This document shows positions 1,388-10,079 of a stretch of DNA of 14,204 nucleotides, one piece after another; within the stretch, counting starts at the first letter, position 1; every line of letters begins with the position of its first letter. The notes beneath the pieces were generated by a model. The model was given only the letters and a program-made list of their open reading frames with translations, made no database searches and had not been told where the DNA came from. The DNA comes from Stomatobaculum sp. (GTDB taxonomy: Bacteria > Bacillota_A > Clostridia > Lachnospirales > Lachnospiraceae): NCBI GenBank assembly GCA_017449925.1, contig JAFSYO010000089.1, positions 1-14,204 on the forward strand. The letters are read 5' to 3'. Position numbers and translations under genes: made by a program.

Positions 1388-1416
1388 TTGACAATGTTTA
1401 AAAGGAATTATATACT
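1388..1416 (+). promoter_or_regulatory. Consensus sigma-A promoter of the leader-iorAB-paaK operon
   Basis: TTGACA (1388-1393) is a perfect -35 box, and TATACT (1411-1416) matches the -10 consensus at 5 of 6 bases, separated by the ideal 17 bases. Transcription should begin near 1422-1425. This places about 50 untranslated bases before the leader peptide ATG at 1473 and about 200 before the terminator hairpin. The 5' part of that leader can form a small hairpin (1435-1439 with 1448-1452). Confidence 0.8.
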
Positions 1417-1472
1417 GCATAAAAATCACAGCGGCCGGGGGAAGGTTCCCGGACCTGGAAAGGAGAACGGCG

Positions 1473-1577
1473 ATGAGAGCAGCAGACAGACAGAGCGGAC
1501 GCTTTTTCGGCTTTACGTTTTTTGGCGGCTTTTACTTTAGCCGCTTCTTTCCCGTGTCCCGGAAAACGTGCCCGTAA
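1473..1577 (+). CDS. Phenylalanine-rich leader peptide (putative attenuator peptide)
   Basis: A 34-codon reading frame starting with ATG 1473, preceded by AGGAG (1461-1465) at a 7-base gap, and ending at TAA 1575-1577. Codons 11-26 read FFGFTFFGGFYFSRFF: nine Phe codons and one Tyr codon in 16, with seven of the nine Phe codons being TTT. The peptide is otherwise rich in Arg, Ser and Gly and resembles no enzyme. The setting (strong promoter just upstream, U-tailed hairpin 46 bases downstream, then an operon for arylpyruvate/arylacetate metabolism) matches the design of enterobacterial pheL and pheM leader peptides, where ribosome pausing at Phe codons sets whether transcription continues. The residues and ribosome site are seen directly; the sensing role is inferred. 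The reverse strand is also open here for 75 codons, but that is a shadow. Confidence 0.75.
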   Translation: MRAADRQSGRFFGFTFFGGFYFSRFFPVSRKTCP

Positions 1578-1653
1578 TGGAACAGCGCCGCTGATATCAG
1601 ATGCTGAAGGAAACTGAAACAGCAACGGCCTCGTCCAGATGGGCGGGGCCGTT
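1522..1653 (+). promoter_or_regulatory. Putative ribosome-mediated phe attenuator (alternative RNA pairings)
   Basis: Three competing pairings can be drawn. 1:2 joins 1522-1529 (inside the Phe codons) to 1587-1594, 8 pairs including two G-U. 2:3 joins 1587-1590 to 1626-1629 and 1602-1606 to 1620-1624. 3:4 is the 13-pair terminator, 1624-1636 with 1641-1653. Segment 1525-1529 can also pair locally with 1540-1544. A ribosome held on the Phe codons would mask segment 1, free segment 2 and favour 2:3, which uses up the terminator's 5' arm. The 2:3 pairing is weak by eye (4 plus 5 pairs), so a folding calculation is needed. The architecture is inference; the pairings are read from the sequence. 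Confidence 0.55.
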
Positions 1654-1664
1654 TATATTTTCCT
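1624..1664 (+). terminator. Intrinsic terminator / attenuator hairpin before iorA
   Basis: AACGGCCTCGTCC (1624-1636) pairs with 1641-1653 over 13 positions, including two G-U wobbles, around an AGAT loop. A U-rich tail (TTATATTTTCCTTT) follows. It lies 46 bases after the leader peptide stop and about 127 bases before the iorA start, with no gene of its own to terminate other than the leader. Confidence 0.8.
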
Positions 1665-1692
1665 TTGCTTTAAAGCGCGAAAGTGATATACT
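1665..1692 (+). promoter_or_regulatory. Possible second promoter downstream of the attenuator
   Basis: TTGCTT (1665-1670), 16 bases, then TATACT (1687-1692) preceded by TG at 1684-1685 (an extended -10). It would start transcripts near 1700 and let iorA be made at a base level without passing the attenuator. Its -35 box touches the terminator's U-rich tail. Evidence is motif-only. Confidence 0.35.
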
Positions 1693-1790
1693 GGATTCCA
1701 AGTGTACCGTGCCCGGCCGGGATCTTCCGGATGCGGGGCGGACAGCAAGTTTCAGCACTGAATAAATATACAACAAAGGAGCGCGACATT

Positions 1791-3530
1791 ATGAGACAGC
1801 TGATGCTGGGCAACAAGGCGGTTGCCCGCGGTCTCTTCGAAGCGGGATGCTGCTTTATCTCCAGTTATCCCGGAACTCCGAGTACGGAGATCACGGAAGA
1901 AGCCGTAAAGTACGATGAGATATACTGCGAATGGGCACCGAACGAGAAAGTGGCCATGGAGGCGGCTTTCGGCGCCTGCCTGGCAGGAAAACGTTCTTTC
2001 TGCGGGATGAAGCATGTGGGACTGAATGTGGCGGCGGACCCGCTGTACACCATGTCCTATACCGGCGTCAACGCAGGCATGGTGGTCGGCGTCGCGGATG
2101 ATGCAGGCATGCACTCCTCCCAGAACGAGCAGGACAGCCGTCATCACGCCATCGCGGCGAAGCTTCCCATGCTGGAGCCGTCGGATTCCGCCGAAGCGAT
2201 GGAGTTCACGAAGCTGGCCTATGAGATTTCCGAGAAGTTCGACACGCCGGTCCTTTTGAAGATGTGCACCAGAGTGGCTCATTCCCAGTCTGTGGTGGAG
2301 ACCGGAGAGCGCGTTGTCCCGGAGAAGGCTTACGAGAAGAACATCGGAAAGTACGTCATGATGCCGGGCAATGCCATCAAGCGCCATCCAATCGTCGAGG
2401 CCAGGACCAAAGCCCTGGAGGAGTACGCTGAGACGGCCCCGGTGAACCGGGTGGAAATGGGAGGAACGGAGCTTGGCATCATCACCCACTCCACTTCCTA
2501 CCAGTATGTCAAGGAAGTGTTCGGAGACAGCGTTTCCGTGCTGAAGATCGGCATGGCGAACCCACTGCCGGAGAAGCTGATCCGCGATTTCGCGTCGAAG
2601 GTTCAGAAGCTGGTGGTGGTTGAGGAGCTGGATCCCATCATCGAGAACTTCGTGAAGCAGCTGGGCATCGAGGTTTCCGGCAAGGACCTGCTTCCCATCG
2701 AGGGTGAGTTCTCCCAGAACCTGGTGGCGAAGGCCCTGGGCAGGGAAGTGCCCCAGGGAAGAAAGCTGGAGGATGCTATTCCGCCGCGGCCGCCGGTCAT
2801 GTGCGCGGGATGTCCCCACAGAGGCCTGTTCCACACCCTGAAGAAAAATAAGTGCACGGTGCTGGGCGATATCGGCTGCTATACCCTGGGTGCGGTCCAG
2901 CCGCTGGGCGCTATCGAGATGACGCTCTGCATGGGCGCTTCCATCAGCGCGACCCACGGTTTCAACAAGGCTCTGGGCAAGGAGAGCGAGGGGAAGACCG
3001 TCGCAGTGATCGGCGATTCCACCTTTATGCACTCCGGAATGACCGGCCTCGCGAACATCGCTTACAACCAGTCGAATTCCACGGTAATTATCCTGGACAA
3101 CTCCATCACCGGCATGACGGGACACCAGCAGAATCCCACCACCGGCTACAACATCAAGGGTGATCCGGCAGGAAAGATCGACCTCGAGGCCCTGTGCCGC
3201 GCCATGGGATTCAAGCGCGTCCGCGTGGTGGACCCCTACGACCTGGCGGAGTGCGACAAGGTCCTGAAGGAAGAGCTGGCAGCGGACGAAGCTTCCGTGA
3301 TCATCTCCCGCAGGCCTTGTGCCCTTCTGAAGTATGTGAAGCACAAAGCGCCGCTGGCGGTGGATCCGGATAAGTGCAGAAGCTGCAGAGCCTGCATGAG
3401 CATCGGATGCCCGGCCATCTCCTTCAAGGGAGGCAAGGCCCATGTGGACAATACGCTCTGTGTCGGCTGCGGCGTCTGTGAGCAGCTCTGCAAGTTTGAT
3501 GCTTTCAAGAGCACCGGAAAGGAGGCCTGA
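1791..3530 (+). CDS. iorA: Indolepyruvate ferredoxin oxidoreductase, alpha subunit
   Basis: IorA is the catalytic subunit of the TPP-dependent enzyme that converts arylpyruvates (indole-, phenyl-, hydroxyphenylpyruvate) plus CoA to aryl-acetyl-CoA, CO2 and reduced ferredoxin; the reaction is reversible in principle. The 579-residue length is normal. The N-terminus has SYPGTPSTEI (about 25-34) and EWAPNEKVAMEAA. The middle has MCAGCPHRGLFHTL. The TPP/Mg region has GDIGCYTLG and GDSTFMHSGM followed by ILDNSITGMTG (about 407-445). The C-terminus has two 4Fe-4S motifs, CRSCRACMSIGCP (about 529-541) and CVGCGVCEQLCK (about 557-568). I chose ATG 1791 because AAGGAG precedes it and MRQLMLGNKAVARG aligns with family starts; the frame runs open to 1683 but that extension looks unrelated. 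iorB begins three bases after the stop. Confidence 0.96.
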   Translation: MRQLMLGNKAVARGLFEAGCCFISSYPGTPSTEITEEAVKYDEIYCEWAPNEKVAMEAAFGACLAGKRSFCGMKHVGLNVAADPLYTMSYTGVNAGMVVGVADDAGMHSSQNEQDSRHHAIAAKLPMLEPSDSAEAMEFTKLAYEISEKFDTPVLLKMCTRVAHSQSVVETGERVVPEKAYEKNIGKYVMMPGNAIKRHPIVEARTKALEEYAETAPVNRVEMGGTELGIITHSTSYQYVKEVFGDSVSVLKIGMANPLPEKLIRDFASKVQKLVVVEELDPIIENFVKQLGIEVSGKDLLPIEGEFSQNLVAKALGREVPQGRKLEDAIPPRPPVMCAGCPHRGLFHTLKKNKCTVLGDIGCYTLGAVQPLGAIEMTLCMGASISATHGFNKALGKESEGKTVAVIGDSTFMHSGMTGLANIAYNQSNSTVIILDNSITGMTGHQQNPTTGYNIKGDPAGKIDLEALCRAMGFKRVRVVDPYDLAECDKVLKEELAADEASVIISRRPCALLKYVKHKAPLAVDPDKCRSCRACMSIGCPAISFKGGKAHVDNTLCVGCGVCEQLCKFDAFKSTGKEA

Positions 3531-3533
3531 GCC

Positions 3534-4112
3534 ATGGCAGCATTGACTAAGAACATTATGATCGTCGGCGTCGGCGGGCAGGGAAGCCTTCTGGCCAGCA
3601 AGCTCCTGGGCCATCTCCTTCTTTCCCAGGGCCTGGATGTAAAGGTCTCTGAAGTACACGGCATGTCCCAGCGCGGCGGCAGCGTTGTCACCTATGTGCG
3701 CTGCGGCGAGAGGGTGAATTCCCCGGTCATCGACCAGGGCGAGGCGGATTTCATTGTCTCCTTTGAGCTTCTGGAGGCGGCGCGCTGGCTTTCCTTCTTG
3801 AAGAAGGACGGTCAGATCGTCACTAACACGCAGCAGATCGACCCGATGCCGGTCATCACCGGCGCGGCTCAGTATCCGGAGGGCCTGGTGGAGAAGATGA
3901 AGGCCGCCGGCGCGAAGGTGGACGCCATGGACTGCCTGAAGCTCGCGGAGGAGGCCGGCTCCTCCAGAGCGGTGAACCTGGTTCTGATGGGACGCCTGTC
4001 CCATTACTTTGATCTCCCGGAGGAGGCCTGGATGAAGTCCCTGGAGGCGAACGTCCCGGCGAAATTCCTGGAGATGAACAAGAAAGCGTTCCTTCTCGGA
4101 AAGAACGCGTAA
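3534..4112 (+). CDS. iorB: Indolepyruvate ferredoxin oxidoreductase, beta subunit
   Basis: The smaller subunit (192 residues) of the arylpyruvate:ferredoxin oxidoreductase, equivalent to the gamma domain of related 2-oxoacid oxidoreductases. Visible landmarks are the glycine-rich loop VGVGGQG (residues 11-17), EVHGMSQRGGSVVTYVR (40-56), which is a family signature, and ADFIVSFELLEAARWL further on. The length is normal. The ATG follows the iorA stop by only 3 bases and sits just after AAAGGAGG in the end of iorA, so the two subunits are translationally coupled and made in equal amounts. The cofactors of the complex lie in IorA. A roughly 120-base gap with a stem-loop separates it from the ligase gene. 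Confidence 0.95.
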   Translation: MAALTKNIMIVGVGGQGSLLASKLLGHLLLSQGLDVKVSEVHGMSQRGGSVVTYVRCGERVNSPVIDQGEADFIVSFELLEAARWLSFLKKDGQIVTNTQQIDPMPVITGAAQYPEGLVEKMKAAGAKVDAMDCLKLAEEAGSSRAVNLVLMGRLSHYFDLPEEAWMKSLEANVPAKFLEMNKKAFLLGKNA

Positions 4113-4234: not shown

Positions 4235-5536
4235 ATGGAACGTTACTATCAGCAGGAAATCGAGTGCGCTTCACGGGAGAAGATCATTGAGATCCAGAAT
4301 GAAAAACTGGTGAAGCAGGTGAAGCATGTGTGGGACAATGTCCCCTACTACCGCAAAAAAATGGAAGAGAAGGGCGTGACGCCGGAGGATATCAAGACCA
4401 TCGACGATCTGAAGAAGCTTCCCTTCCTTTCCAAGGCGGATCTGAGGGACGCGTATCCCTACGGCCTGATGGGCAAGCCCCTGGAGGACTGCGTACGCAT
4501 CCAGTCCACTTCCGGCACCACGGGAAAGCGCGTCGTGGCGTTCTACACTCAGCATGACATTGATCTCTGGGAAGAGTGCTGCGCCCGCGCCATCGTGGCG
4601 GCAGGCGGCACCAAGGAGGACGTGTGCCAGGTGTCCTACGGCTACGGACTCTTCACCGGAGGACCGGGCCTGAACGGCGGAAGCCACAAGGTCGGCTGCC
4701 TCACCATCCCCACCAGCTCCGGCAATACCGAGCGCCAGATCATGTTCATCATGGACCTGCAGGCGACGATCCTGTGCTGCACCCCCAGCTACGCCGCGTT
4801 CCTCGGAGAAAAAATGAAGGAACTGGGTCTTGGCCCGGACGACATCCCGCTGAAGGCAGGCATCTTCGGCGCGGAAGCCTGGAGCGAAGAGATGCGCCAT
4901 GACATCGAGAAGACCTTGGGCATCAAGGCCTACGATATCTACGGCCTCACCGAGCTGTCCGGCCCCGGCGTCTCCTTCGAGTGCTCCGCCCAGCAGGGCA
5001 TGCACGTCAACGAGGACCACTTCATCGCCGAGATCATCGACCCCGACACCGGCGAAGTGCTTCCCGACGGGACCCAGGGCGAGCTGGTGTTCACCTCCCT
5101 CGACAAGGAGGCGTTCCCGCTGCTCCGCTACCGCACGAGAGACATCTGCACCCTGACCCGGGAGAAATGCTCCTGCGGACGCACCCATGTCCGCATGGCG
5201 AAGCCGAAGGGACGTTCCGACGACATGCTCATCATCCGCGGCGTCAACGTATTCCCGTCCCAGATCGAGACGGTGCTCCTGAAGCACGGCTACGCTGCGA
5301 ACTACCTGATCATCGTGGACCGCGTCAACAACACGGATACCCTGGAGGTCCAGGTGGAGATGACGCCTGAGATGTTCACCGACAACCTGGGCGAGATCTC
5401 CGCCCGCCAGAAGGCGCTGGTGGAGGGCATGAAGTCCATGCTCGGAATCAAGGCAAAGGTCACCCTGGTGGCGCCGCGCACCATCGCGAGAAGCGAAGGA
5501 AAGGCAGTCCGCGTCATCGACAAGAGAAAGATCTGA
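4235..5536 (+). CDS. paaK: Phenylacetate-CoA ligase (AMP-forming)
   Basis: A 433-residue member of the adenylate-forming PaaK family, which activates phenylacetate (or related aryl acids) with ATP and CoA to the CoA thioester; in fermenters it is also proposed to handle products of IorAB. Motifs: the phosphate-binding loop STSGTTGK (91-98), YGLTE (236-240), RYRTRD (298-303), a cysteine pair KCSCGRTH (about 311-318), and the hinge GRSDDMLIIRGVNVFPSQIE (326-345). The C-terminal domain ends RSEGKAVRVIDKR with a lysine near the expected catalytic position. Length and start are usual for the family; AAAGAAAGGG precedes the ATG. It is co-directional with iorAB and followed 18 bases later by an ACT-domain gene, a frequent grouping in anaerobes. 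The exact aryl substrate cannot be read from sequence. Confidence 0.93.
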   Translation: MERYYQQEIECASREKIIEIQNEKLVKQVKHVWDNVPYYRKKMEEKGVTPEDIKTIDDLKKLPFLSKADLRDAYPYGLMGKPLEDCVRIQSTSGTTGKRVVAFYTQHDIDLWEECCARAIVAAGGTKEDVCQVSYGYGLFTGGPGLNGGSHKVGCLTIPTSSGNTERQIMFIMDLQATILCCTPSYAAFLGEKMKELGLGPDDIPLKAGIFGAEAWSEEMRHDIEKTLGIKAYDIYGLTELSGPGVSFECSAQQGMHVNEDHFIAEIIDPDTGEVLPDGTQGELVFTSLDKEAFPLLRYRTRDICTLTREKCSCGRTHVRMAKPKGRSDDMLIIRGVNVFPSQIETVLLKHGYAANYLIIVDRVNNTDTLEVQVEMTPEMFTDNLGEISARQKALVEGMKSMLGIKAKVTLVAPRTIARSEGKAVRVIDKRKI

Positions 5537-5554: not shown

Positions 5555-5989
5555 ATGAGTGTCAAGCAGATTTCCGTATTTCTTGAGAACAGACCCGGAA
5601 CCCTGAATGAGATGACAAAGGTCCTTGCCGACAACAAGATCGACATGCGCGCGCTGTCCGTGTCCGAGACCAAGGACTTCGGCATTGCCCGCGTCATCGT
5701 GGACGATGTTATCCGCGCCGTGAACGTCCTGAAGAAGGAGGGCTATGTGGCCAGCCTCACGACAGTGCTTGCCTACGCGGTGCCGGACGAGCCCGGCGGG
5801 CTGAACACCCTGCTGTCCGTCTTCGCGGAGGAGAACATCAACCTCGAATACATGTACGCGATCCTCGGCGGAAAGAGCAGCGAGCACGCCTACATGATCT
5901 TCAACGTCGCCGACACCGTGAAGGCGGAAGCCGCCATGCGCGGCCGGGGCTACACCTCCGTCAGCCAGGAAGATATCAGTGTGATCTAA
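5555..5989 (+). CDS. Tandem ACT-domain protein
   Basis: A 144-residue soluble protein made of two ACT domains with no enzyme attached. The first starts VKQISVFLENRPGTLNEMTKVLADNKIDMRALSV (about 3-36), the second around residues 70-144 with DEPGGLNTLLSVFAEENINLEYMY. The two glycine-containing turns (RPGTL and PGGLN) are where ACT domains bind amino acids. Its perfect AGGAGG site (5541-5546) lies 8 bases before the ATG, and it is the last gene before the operon terminator. ACT proteins next to paaK and ior genes are common. A role in sensing aromatic amino acids or tuning the ligase or IorAB is plausible, but its partner and ligand are not shown by the sequence. Confidence 0.9.
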   Translation: MSVKQISVFLENRPGTLNEMTKVLADNKIDMRALSVSETKDFGIARVIVDDVIRAVNVLKKEGYVASLTTVLAYAVPDEPGGLNTLLSVFAEENINLEYMYAILGGKSSEHAYMIFNVADTVKAEAAMRGRGYTSVSQEDISVI

Positions 5990-6098: not shown

Positions 6099-6137
6099 GC
6101 TTTAGTGCTTTTGACATCTGAGGACCCGGATGAGTAT

Positions 6138-6884
6138 ATGTGCACAAGTATTGCTGTAAATAAGAAAAAGACCATCATCGGCTGGAATCTGGATATTCTG
6201 GATATGGAGTACCGGGTCCGGCCTTCGGAGAGCGGCGTTTTCATTGAGATCAACGACCCGAAGGAGGGATGGCTCCCGCTGTTCGGGGCGAACGCCAGGG
6301 GCGATTTTGTGGGAATGCCGACTTGCTGGCCCTTCGACGCGAGGAGCGACCCGCCGGCATTATTTGCAGGAGATGCGGCAAAAGACGGGGCGGGAAACGG
6401 CTCAGGTGGGGCCGCGGGAAGCGGCACGAACATCATCATGCTGGATATCGACCTGCTGCTGCAGAAGAAGACCCTGCAGGAGATCCGGGACATTGCGGAC
6501 AAGGGCCCGGTGTACAGCATCCCCGGCGTCACCTTTATGGGTTCCCTTTCTGACGCGGAGGGGAATGTGCTCCATATCATACCGGGACAGGGCTGCCTGT
6601 ATTATGAAAGACCGGAATACAAGATCATGACGAATTTCTCTCCCTTCAAGCAGGATTCGGAGCAGCATCCCTGGATGGGCTGGGACAGGTACCAGAAGGC
6701 AGATGTCATGCTGCGGAACGCGGCGGAAGATTTCGACGTGAAGGACTGCTTCGCCGTCCTTAAGGAAGTGGCGCAGGAAGTCTGTCCCACCGTAGTCTCC
6801 ATGGTGTACGATGTGCAGGAGAGGACAGTATACTGGTGCGAAAACCGGGAGTGGGATATAATACAAATGTGGAAGTTTGATTAA
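6138..6884 (+). CDS. Short choloylglycine-hydrolase-like Ntn hydrolase
   Basis: A 248-residue protein whose start MCTSIAVNKKKTIIGWNLD matches the Cys2-nucleophile start of the choloylglycine (bile salt) hydrolase / penicillin V acylase group, where Met1 is removed and Cys2 attacks an amide bond. Asp19 (NLD) and Asn166 (IMTNFSPF) fit the expected active-site positions, and Arg184 (GWDRY) may match the later arginine. The arginine usually before NxD is tryptophan here, and the protein is shorter than the roughly 315-340 residues of bile salt hydrolases, so the substrate may differ. A Gly/Ala/Ser-rich stretch at about 77-97 looks like an inserted linker. I chose ATG 6138, not the in-frame GTG at 6105, because only 6138 exposes Cys2. 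No signal peptide is seen. The DUF3795 gene follows 18 bases later. Confidence 0.75.
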   Translation: MCTSIAVNKKKTIIGWNLDILDMEYRVRPSESGVFIEINDPKEGWLPLFGANARGDFVGMPTCWPFDARSDPPALFAGDAAKDGAGNGSGGAAGSGTNIIMLDIDLLLQKKTLQEIRDIADKGPVYSIPGVTFMGSLSDAEGNVLHIIPGQGCLYYERPEYKIMTNFSPFKQDSEQHPWMGWDRYQKADVMLRNAAEDFDVKDCFAVLKEVAQEVCPTVVSMVYDVQERTVYWCENREWDIIQMWKFD

Positions 6885-9429: not shown

Positions 9430-9450
9430 TGTTGTCGAAAGCCATATGAT
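9422..9450 (+). promoter_or_regulatory. Promoter of the ilvD-fragment / chorismate mutase unit
   Basis: TTTACA (9422-9427), 17 bases, then TATGAT (9445-9450), each matching consensus at 5 of 6 positions. Transcription would begin near 9457, about 50 bases before the ATG of the ilvD fragment. Confidence 0.6.
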
Positions 9451-9508
9451 AAGAATACAGACAGCAGAGTCCGAAAAACTGAGGAACCGCCAGGGACAGG
9501 AAATACTT

Positions 9509-9754
9509 ATGGAGAAAAATTATCCGGAGATGCATTTTAAAGATTACAGGAGCGGTATTCTGACCAACGGGATCGAGCGTTCTGCCCACCGTGCATTGCT
9601 TTACAGCACAGGGCTTGACACAGATGACCTGAAAAAACCGCTGATCGCGGTGGTCGACTCCTTTACGGAAATGGTTCCGGGACATATTCACCTCCGCAGC
9701 GTCGCGGACAAGGGCGCTGTGCTGAAGCGCCCGGAGGAGATGGAAAAGGCCTGA
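9509..9754 (+). pseudogene. ilvD: Truncated dihydroxy-acid dehydratase (N-terminal fragment only)
   Basis: The 81-residue frame begins MEKNYPEMHFKDYRSGILTNGIERSAHRALLYSTGLD and continues KPLIAVVDSFTEMVPGHIHLRSVADKG, matching the first 60-70 residues of dihydroxy-acid dehydratase (about 550-620 residues when whole; final-but-one step of valine/isoleucine synthesis). After VADKG the similarity stops and 13 unrelated residues lead to a TGA. The cluster-binding cysteines and the rest of the enzyme are absent, so it cannot be active. ATG 9509 has an ACAGGA site 7 bases upstream; the frame is open to 9446 without one. The stop lies just before the chorismate mutase gene. I read it as a deletion remnant that still supplies promoter and translation to the downstream genes. 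A retained small protein is possible but less likely. Confidence 0.75.
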
Positions 9755-9791
9755 AATGGCAGAACATGACATAAAAACAGGAAGAACTGAT

Positions 9792-10079
9792 ATGGATCTG
9801 AAGGAAGCGAGAAAAGAAATCGACCGTATCGACCGGCAGATGGTGGAACTCCTCCGGGAGCGGCTCGGCGTGTGCGATGAGATTGCGAAATATAAAGGGG
9901 AACACGGTCTTCCGCTGACGGACGCGGCGCGGGAGAGGGAAAAACTGTGCGAGGTCTCCGAACTGATTGGGGAGGAACTGAGCAGCTATGCGGTGGAACT
10001 CTATTCCGTAATCTTTGAGATATGCAAGAAAAGACAGGCCGATTACTGCACGGGAGACTCGAAAGAAACATGTATTTGA
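9792..10079 (+). CDS. Chorismate mutase (AroQ type)
   Basis: A small all-helical enzyme converting chorismate to prephenate, the first committed step to Phe and Tyr. The 95 residues start MDLKEARKEIDRIDRQMVELLRERLGVCDEIAKYKG and go on to LTDAAREREKL; the spaced Arg, Lys, Asp, Arg and Glu residues match the AroQ active-site pattern (R-x-x-I-D-x-x-D, R, K-x-x-x, D-x-x-R-E). It stands alone, without a prephenate dehydratase or dehydrogenase domain. I prefer ATG 9792, which has AGGAAG 7 bases upstream and fits family starts; ATG 9756, two bases after the ilvD fragment's stop with AAAAGG before it, would add 12 residues. Its end overlaps the next gene by 10 bases. Confidence 0.88.
   Translation: MDLKEARKEIDRIDRQMVELLRERLGVCDEIAKYKGEHGLPLTDAAREREKLCEVSELIGEELSSYAVELYSVIFEICKKRQADYCTGDSKETCI

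Follow-up and report, generated by a model that had tools for sequence, protein, structure and literature searches.

A probable phenylalanine leader-peptide attenuator upstream of an iorAB-paaK-ACT operon in Stomatobaculum sp.

The window analysed here (the whole stretch of 14,204 nucleotides of a Stomatobaculum sp. contig) carries four operon genes on its plus strand: iorA (1791-3530), coding for the alpha subunit of indolepyruvate:ferredoxin oxidoreductase and scoring 715 bits against TIGR03336 (above the cut-off of 650.9), iorB (3534-4112; NF005325, 265 bits), a gene for an AMP-forming phenylacetate-CoA ligase (4235-5536), and a gene for an ACT-domain pair protein (5555-5989; ACT_8, PF19571). 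The ligase is referred to as PaaK-like since its score against TIGR02155 (519.1) is below the cut-off of 646.3. The gap before its gene measures 122 nt, with no plus-strand terminator listed within it. Between a P-type ATPase gene and the leader region described below lies a DUF4160 gene (PF13711; 980-1255) on the minus strand, directed away from iorA, and a second small minus-strand frame (about 736-969) is found downstream of the DUF4160 gene. Beyond the operon, the protein encoded at 6105-6884 had no match in Pfam or NCBIfam at E 0.001 and returned 1634 matches in a protein search, the best at 76% identity among the matches listed, its own record aside. A 102-aa frame at 9446-9754 ends just before a chorismate mutase gene (9756-10079); it has no Pfam match and presumably resembles the N-terminus of dihydroxy-acid dehydratase.

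The region preceding iorA begins with promoter P1 (TTGACA-17-TATACT, 1388-1416, plus strand), which agrees with the consensus at 11 of 12 positions and has the top score among the 13 promoter sites listed for the window. It is followed by a ribosome site read from the sequence (AAGGAG, 1460-1465), 7 nt upstream of the ATG at 1473, and by the leader frame MRAADRQSGRFFGFTFFGGFYFSRFFPVSRKTCP (1473-1577, plus strand), which consists of 34 codons and a stop codon at 1575-1577 and holds nine Phe codons (7 TTT, 2 TTC) and one Tyr codon among the 16 codons of 1503-1550. An intrinsic terminator (1624-1663, plus strand), supported by both the terminator scan and the fold statistics (z -6.3; none of 200 shuffles equally stable), begins 46 nt downstream of the leader stop with a stem at 1624-1653 of 13 pairs, nine of them G-C. 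The original prediction had named this promoter, the Phe-rich frame with its ribosome site and a U-tailed hairpin at this distance, and each was recovered, with the reservation that the tail TATATTTTCC departs from a clean U-run. Two of the elements by which an attenuator is recognised are present in the window: a short frame that has a ribosome site and a stretch of regulatory codons, and an intrinsic terminator between that frame and the first gene. Between terminator and iorA lies a candidate second promoter, P2 (TTTGCT-17-TATACT with an extended -10, TGA; 1664-1692, plus strand), which was picked out by eye, is absent from the promoter site list and could possibly bypass an attenuator. An Rfam search of the window returned nothing relevant, with no leader family at E 1 or better, and the T-box covariance model (RF00230) likewise gave no match at this threshold.

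Folding of the nascent RNA places a predicted antiterminator, a three-way junction of -15.6 kcal/mol, at 1578-1637 on the plus strand, its 5' edge adjoining the stop codon. In the fold of lowest energy obtained when 1578-1641 is free, 1578-1581 pairs with 1634-1637, 1587-1590 with 1626-1629, and 1602-1606 with 1620-1624; this fold accounts for 4% of the ensemble, and the inner arms of the centroid are arranged otherwise. Before masking, the 5' arm of the terminator is paired upstream with a mean probability of 0.70, and computed masking of 1578-1589 lowers this sequestration to 0.01. The response is not smooth, with values of 0.46 for masking at 1582, 0.29 at 1586, 0.01 at 1590 and 0.18 at 1594, and of 0.10 to 0.18 from 1594 onward. 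Compared with shuffled sequences the window antiterminator is weak (z -1.2 for the structure of -15.6 kcal/mol; z -1.6 with 13 of 200 equally stable in the fold statistics), and sequestration of the terminator arm equal to that of the unmasked window is reached by 59 of 300 shuffles. In all folds that contain the full hairpin the terminator wins, so the choice between the two structures must be kinetic. Without translation, the predicted folds before emergence of the 3' arm are antiterminator and not termination. From the classical 1:2, 2:3, 3:4 plan that had been drawn for this region, the pairings 1587-1590/1626-1629 and 1602-1606/1620-1624 and the hairpin 1624-1653 stand, and the 1:2 pairing falls: 1522-1529/1587-1594 can be drawn but had a probability of 0.00 in ten folds to 1661 containing both strands. 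No protective 1:2 helix is predicted in the window, which we regard as a feature of the trp/phe type and not as a requirement.

We interpret 1388-1790 as a ribosome-mediated transcription attenuator that is on when Phe-tRNA is short, and assign this reading a probability of roughly 0.8. The sequence itself shows the promoter, the frame with its Phe run and stop position, the terminator and the gene order, and the loss of the antiterminator on masking comes from the folding model. The transcript from P1 would carry the 34-codon frame, to be translated behind RNA polymerase. A ribosome footprint covers about 15 nt. With charged Phe-tRNA available, the ribosome would reach the stop codon at 1575-1577 and cover about 1578-1590, blocking the antiterminator, whereupon the hairpin 1624-1653 would form and transcription would end near 1655-1663. 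With Phe-tRNA in short supply, the ribosome would stall within 1503-1550 and leave 1578-1637 free to fold into the antiterminator, which would hold the terminator's 5' arm and permit read-through into iorAB-paaK-ACT. Translation of the leader, stalling of the ribosome and read-through are the steps that we infer.

For comparison with related loci, distinct iorA upstream stretches were assembled from a scan of genome contigs (the best 80 of 595 relatives) and from whole-genome searches in which genomes were drawn evenly from the larger groups. Listed matches lacking a locus were mostly fetched by place, and the 50-56% class was omitted beyond the first 30 loci of one search. Identical upstream ends, upstream stretches shorter than 200 nt and cases in which the iorA start could not be located (10 in one count, 1 in the count of 294 regions) were removed before counting; the loci L081-L104 and L358-L367 had been retrieved on account of other genes or of T-boxes. 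To pass the screen, a region needed a frame with a ribosome site and at least 6 aromatic codons in 16, and a terminator no more than 180 nt past the stop. Since both ribosome site and terminator are demanded, the three regions found to carry the device among 294 (the window, L064 and L298) are a lower bound. The remaining 291 showed no such device by this screen. The genus with the closest iorA has four iorA loci, three with enough upstream sequence (G1626 has only 176 nt); G428 and G1627 (each with iorA 86% identical) and G1631 (83%) had no leader by the same screen, and the two regions that this genus adds to the count bring the total to 296. Lack of the small frame in related genomes was among the conditions that the original prediction named as refuting it, and the leaders of L064 and L298 are only a partial offset. 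The best identity was 51% for the window asparaginase among 24 genomes and 65% for the window ACT protein in one family of 19 genomes, and ACT relatives with 81-86% identity (P0122-P0126) were found as proteins only.

Several other candidates were discarded during the survey. The Phe-high frames of L055, L005, L008 and L013 were not listed as aromatic frames with a ribosome site; no terminator was found for L055 and L008, and in L005 and L013 the terminator overlaps or precedes the start. Detector matches in L005, L039, L180 and L203 had low aromatic counts and were lost at 6 aromatic codons in 16. The sequence TTTACTTT, considered as a common operator, occurred in only 9 of 261 regions.

L064 belongs to a metagenome-assembled genome labelled sheep ileum and L298 to another species of the same genus, which is not that of the window. 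Their leaders (MIRNSVDYAYAYYFDFYFKN in L064 and MNIYSVKTADAYYFGFYFINQE in L298) each follow a TTGACA promoter and, like that of the window, both devices stand before iorAB-paaK-ACT. Their terminators are almost the same, and their antiterminators, which match as well, have 9 to 10 pairs, in L064 formed by AAGGTATTTG pairing with CAAATACCTT (z -4.8; 0/200 shuffles equally stable). The core AYYF[D/G]FYF is common to both, with one silent codon change and one Asp to Gly replacement, and the N-terminal codons diverge more than the core, a pattern of conservation seen between these two leaders. Shuffles matching the observed sequestration of the terminator arm numbered 1 in 300 for L064 and 0 in 300 for L298. 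Masking of 12 nt after the stop lowered sequestration in L298 from 0.75 to 0.25; in L064 it fell only to 0.41 at 16 nt past the stop and to 0.23 at 20 nt. The window leader shares with L298 the residues GFYF and a 14-nt stretch in the same frame. No likeness was seen between the RNA elements of the window and those of L064 and L298, and we therefore consider the devices to be separate or very diverged.

The combination of frame and terminator exceeds chance. By the screen described above, whose thresholds were fixed after seeing the three positive cases, 3 of 258 real iorA upstream regions passed compared with none of 7740 dinucleotide shuffles. When the 450 nt taken from the window were shuffled 2000 times, no shuffle combined a terminator with a frame of at least 6 aromatic codons in 16, and one gave a ribosome-site frame with at least 9 aromatic codons. 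All six T-runs of three or more in the leader tract begin in register with the codons of the frame (phase 0). T-richness accounts for only a part of the aromatic count, since shuffling the T-rich segment 1503-1550 yields 10 aromatic codons in the fixed frame in 74 of 20000 cases. The preference of the leader for TTT (7 TTT and 2 TTC versus 6 and 33 across the four genes of the operon; Fisher p 0.0006) could also be caused by T-richness.

Other sensors precede the same operon in related genomes. T-boxes were found before iorA, or before a TrpR-like gene and iorA, in nine regions, seven of them above the Rfam cut-off; L166 scored 82 bits and L017 was recognised by motif only. The specifier position reads UUC in L167, L173, L181 (with a changed flank), L244 and L254, while L001, L017, L040 and L166 show GAAAUUUCA or a near variant there. 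By the usual specifier-reading rule, the nine are presumably of the Phe type (UUC or UUU). Phe-type T-boxes and leader-peptide attenuators both switch on when tRNA-Phe is uncharged. That Phe-tRNA supply governs read-through into iorAB-paaK, as the original prediction held, gains credibility because both the Tyr/Phe leaders of L064 and L298 and these Phe-type T-boxes precede this operon. The genomes bearing the L064 and L298 leaders have 2 and 3 T-box matches, none above the cut-off, compared with 10 and 11 in G428 and G001; all of these are draft genomes. Just upstream of iorA, L188, L192, L243 and L248 have a terminator of the T-box type without a T-box core; pieces of the 5' part of a T-box persist in L188 and L192, no Rfam T-box match was obtained for L188 and L243, and the four terminators are perhaps decayed Phe T-boxes.

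TrpR-like genes, recognised by a short motif, lie upstream of iorA in 50 of the 294 regions, and all three tested match YerC/YecD (TIGR02531). A promoter/operator-like motif, TTTACYTTNNCGCTTTNNNGTGNTA, was noticed before iorA or the TrpR-like gene (e.g., in L001, L017, L041, L136, L166, L171 and L269) and is possibly the operator of the TrpR-like protein; it occurs with at most 3 mismatches in 19 in 30 of 264 regions and in none of five shuffles per region, the motif having been drawn from some of these same regions. These observations, together with the P2-like site and the weakness of the window antiterminator, give some substance to the strongest alternative, in which the leader terminator is real but constitutive or protein-controlled, the T-rich frame is not a sensor, and the operon is fed mainly by P2 or regulated by a TrpR-like repressor. 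We consider it improbable, as a search of the 800 nt preceding iorA in the window gave no TrpR-like motif, the window is outside the set of regions with at most 4 mismatches to the operator-like motif (a hand count at P2 gives 5), and such a terminator leaves aside the T-runs in phase, the shuffles without a single pass and the Tyr/Phe leaders of two relatives. Less probable still is a gene for a small Phe-rich membrane or secreted peptide unconnected to iorA control: the hydrophobic aromatic stretch with basic ends, as read from the sequence, and a promoter and terminator of its own would suit it, but the frame sits directly before iorA, and L064 and L298 repeat the arrangement with a different peptide, preserving between them the Tyr/Phe core and the RNA elements but with differing N-terminal codons. 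A chance T-rich tract beside a terminator belonging elsewhere, for which the many regions without the device by the screen (closest relatives included) and the tract shuffles reaching the aromatic count can be cited, is just as improbable given that no plus-strand frame of at least 100 aa ends between 660 and 1624 and that the combination of features is absent from shuffles.

A ribosome-mediated attenuator responding to Phe-tRNA has well-known counterparts in the enterobacterial Phe attenuators of pheL/pheA and pheM/pheST. These resemble the window in having a Phe-rich short frame, a terminator and an antiterminator freed by stalling; their targets are Phe biosynthesis and a tRNA synthetase, whereas the window target is an operon for an arylpyruvate oxidoreductase and an arylacetate-CoA ligase, the relatives of the window contig are Bacillota, and the window lacks a predicted 1:2 helix. 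The title of PMC5794164 names a leucine-rich attenuator peptide in S. aureus. The Phe T-box (RF00230) resembles the window device in preceding iorA or the TrpR-like gene and iorA in the nine related regions, and differs in binding tRNA directly without a peptide. Phe attenuators and pheST are named in PMC1262725. According to PMC2965389 and PMC9413887, leader-peptide attenuators are already documented in Bacillota for his genes, where they alternate with T-boxes and with a TrpR-family repressor on the same operon, as in the iorA regions; the amino acid and the operon are other than in the window. The general statement that Bacillota mostly use T-boxes for amino acid control is qualified by these his leaders. 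The upstream frame uORFC-13-1 before aroF of Acholeplasma, described in PMC8632094, is likewise a frame with a Phe codon, a terminator and a link to the aromatic pathway, and differs in having at least one Phe only, in its aroF target, and in lineage and structure. In a literature searched mostly without subscription papers, we found no report of Phe leader-peptide attenuation on an indolepyruvate oxidoreductase operon, in agreement with the original prediction, and none linking T-box, indolepyruvate and phenylalanine.

The sign of the control bears on metabolic direction, since genes that are on under Phe shortage should make Phe. If the operon is on when Phe is short, IorAB and PaaK would therefore work in the direction of Phe in this organism, with phenylacetate being activated and then carboxylated to phenylpyruvate; this step lies outside the probability given above for the attenuator. 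In PMC13285125, Ior is cited in Phe breakdown in B. thetaiotaomicron and an AMP-forming ligase beside Ior is taken to suggest synthesis in Bacteroides; with Ior linked to breakdown and, by proposal, to synthesis, a Phe-starvation switch makes the direction testable. Formation of Phe from phenylacetate in the rumen is mentioned, citing work of 1965, in PMC7356843. More broadly, and on a view that we hold to be evenly poised, charging of tRNA-Phe may in general control iorAB-paaK-ACT in anaerobic gut Bacillota, as a biosynthetic operon that makes Phe (and Tyr) by arylacetate carboxylation, with leader attenuators having arisen on two or more occasions in the place taken in other lineages by a Phe T-box or a TrpR-like repressor. 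The known leader-peptide attenuators of Bacillota would gain Phe and Tyr/Phe cases, and the swapping of sensors on one operon would be shown. If true, it points to iorAB-paaK as candidate genes for the synthesis of Phe from phenylacetate long known in rumen bacteria.
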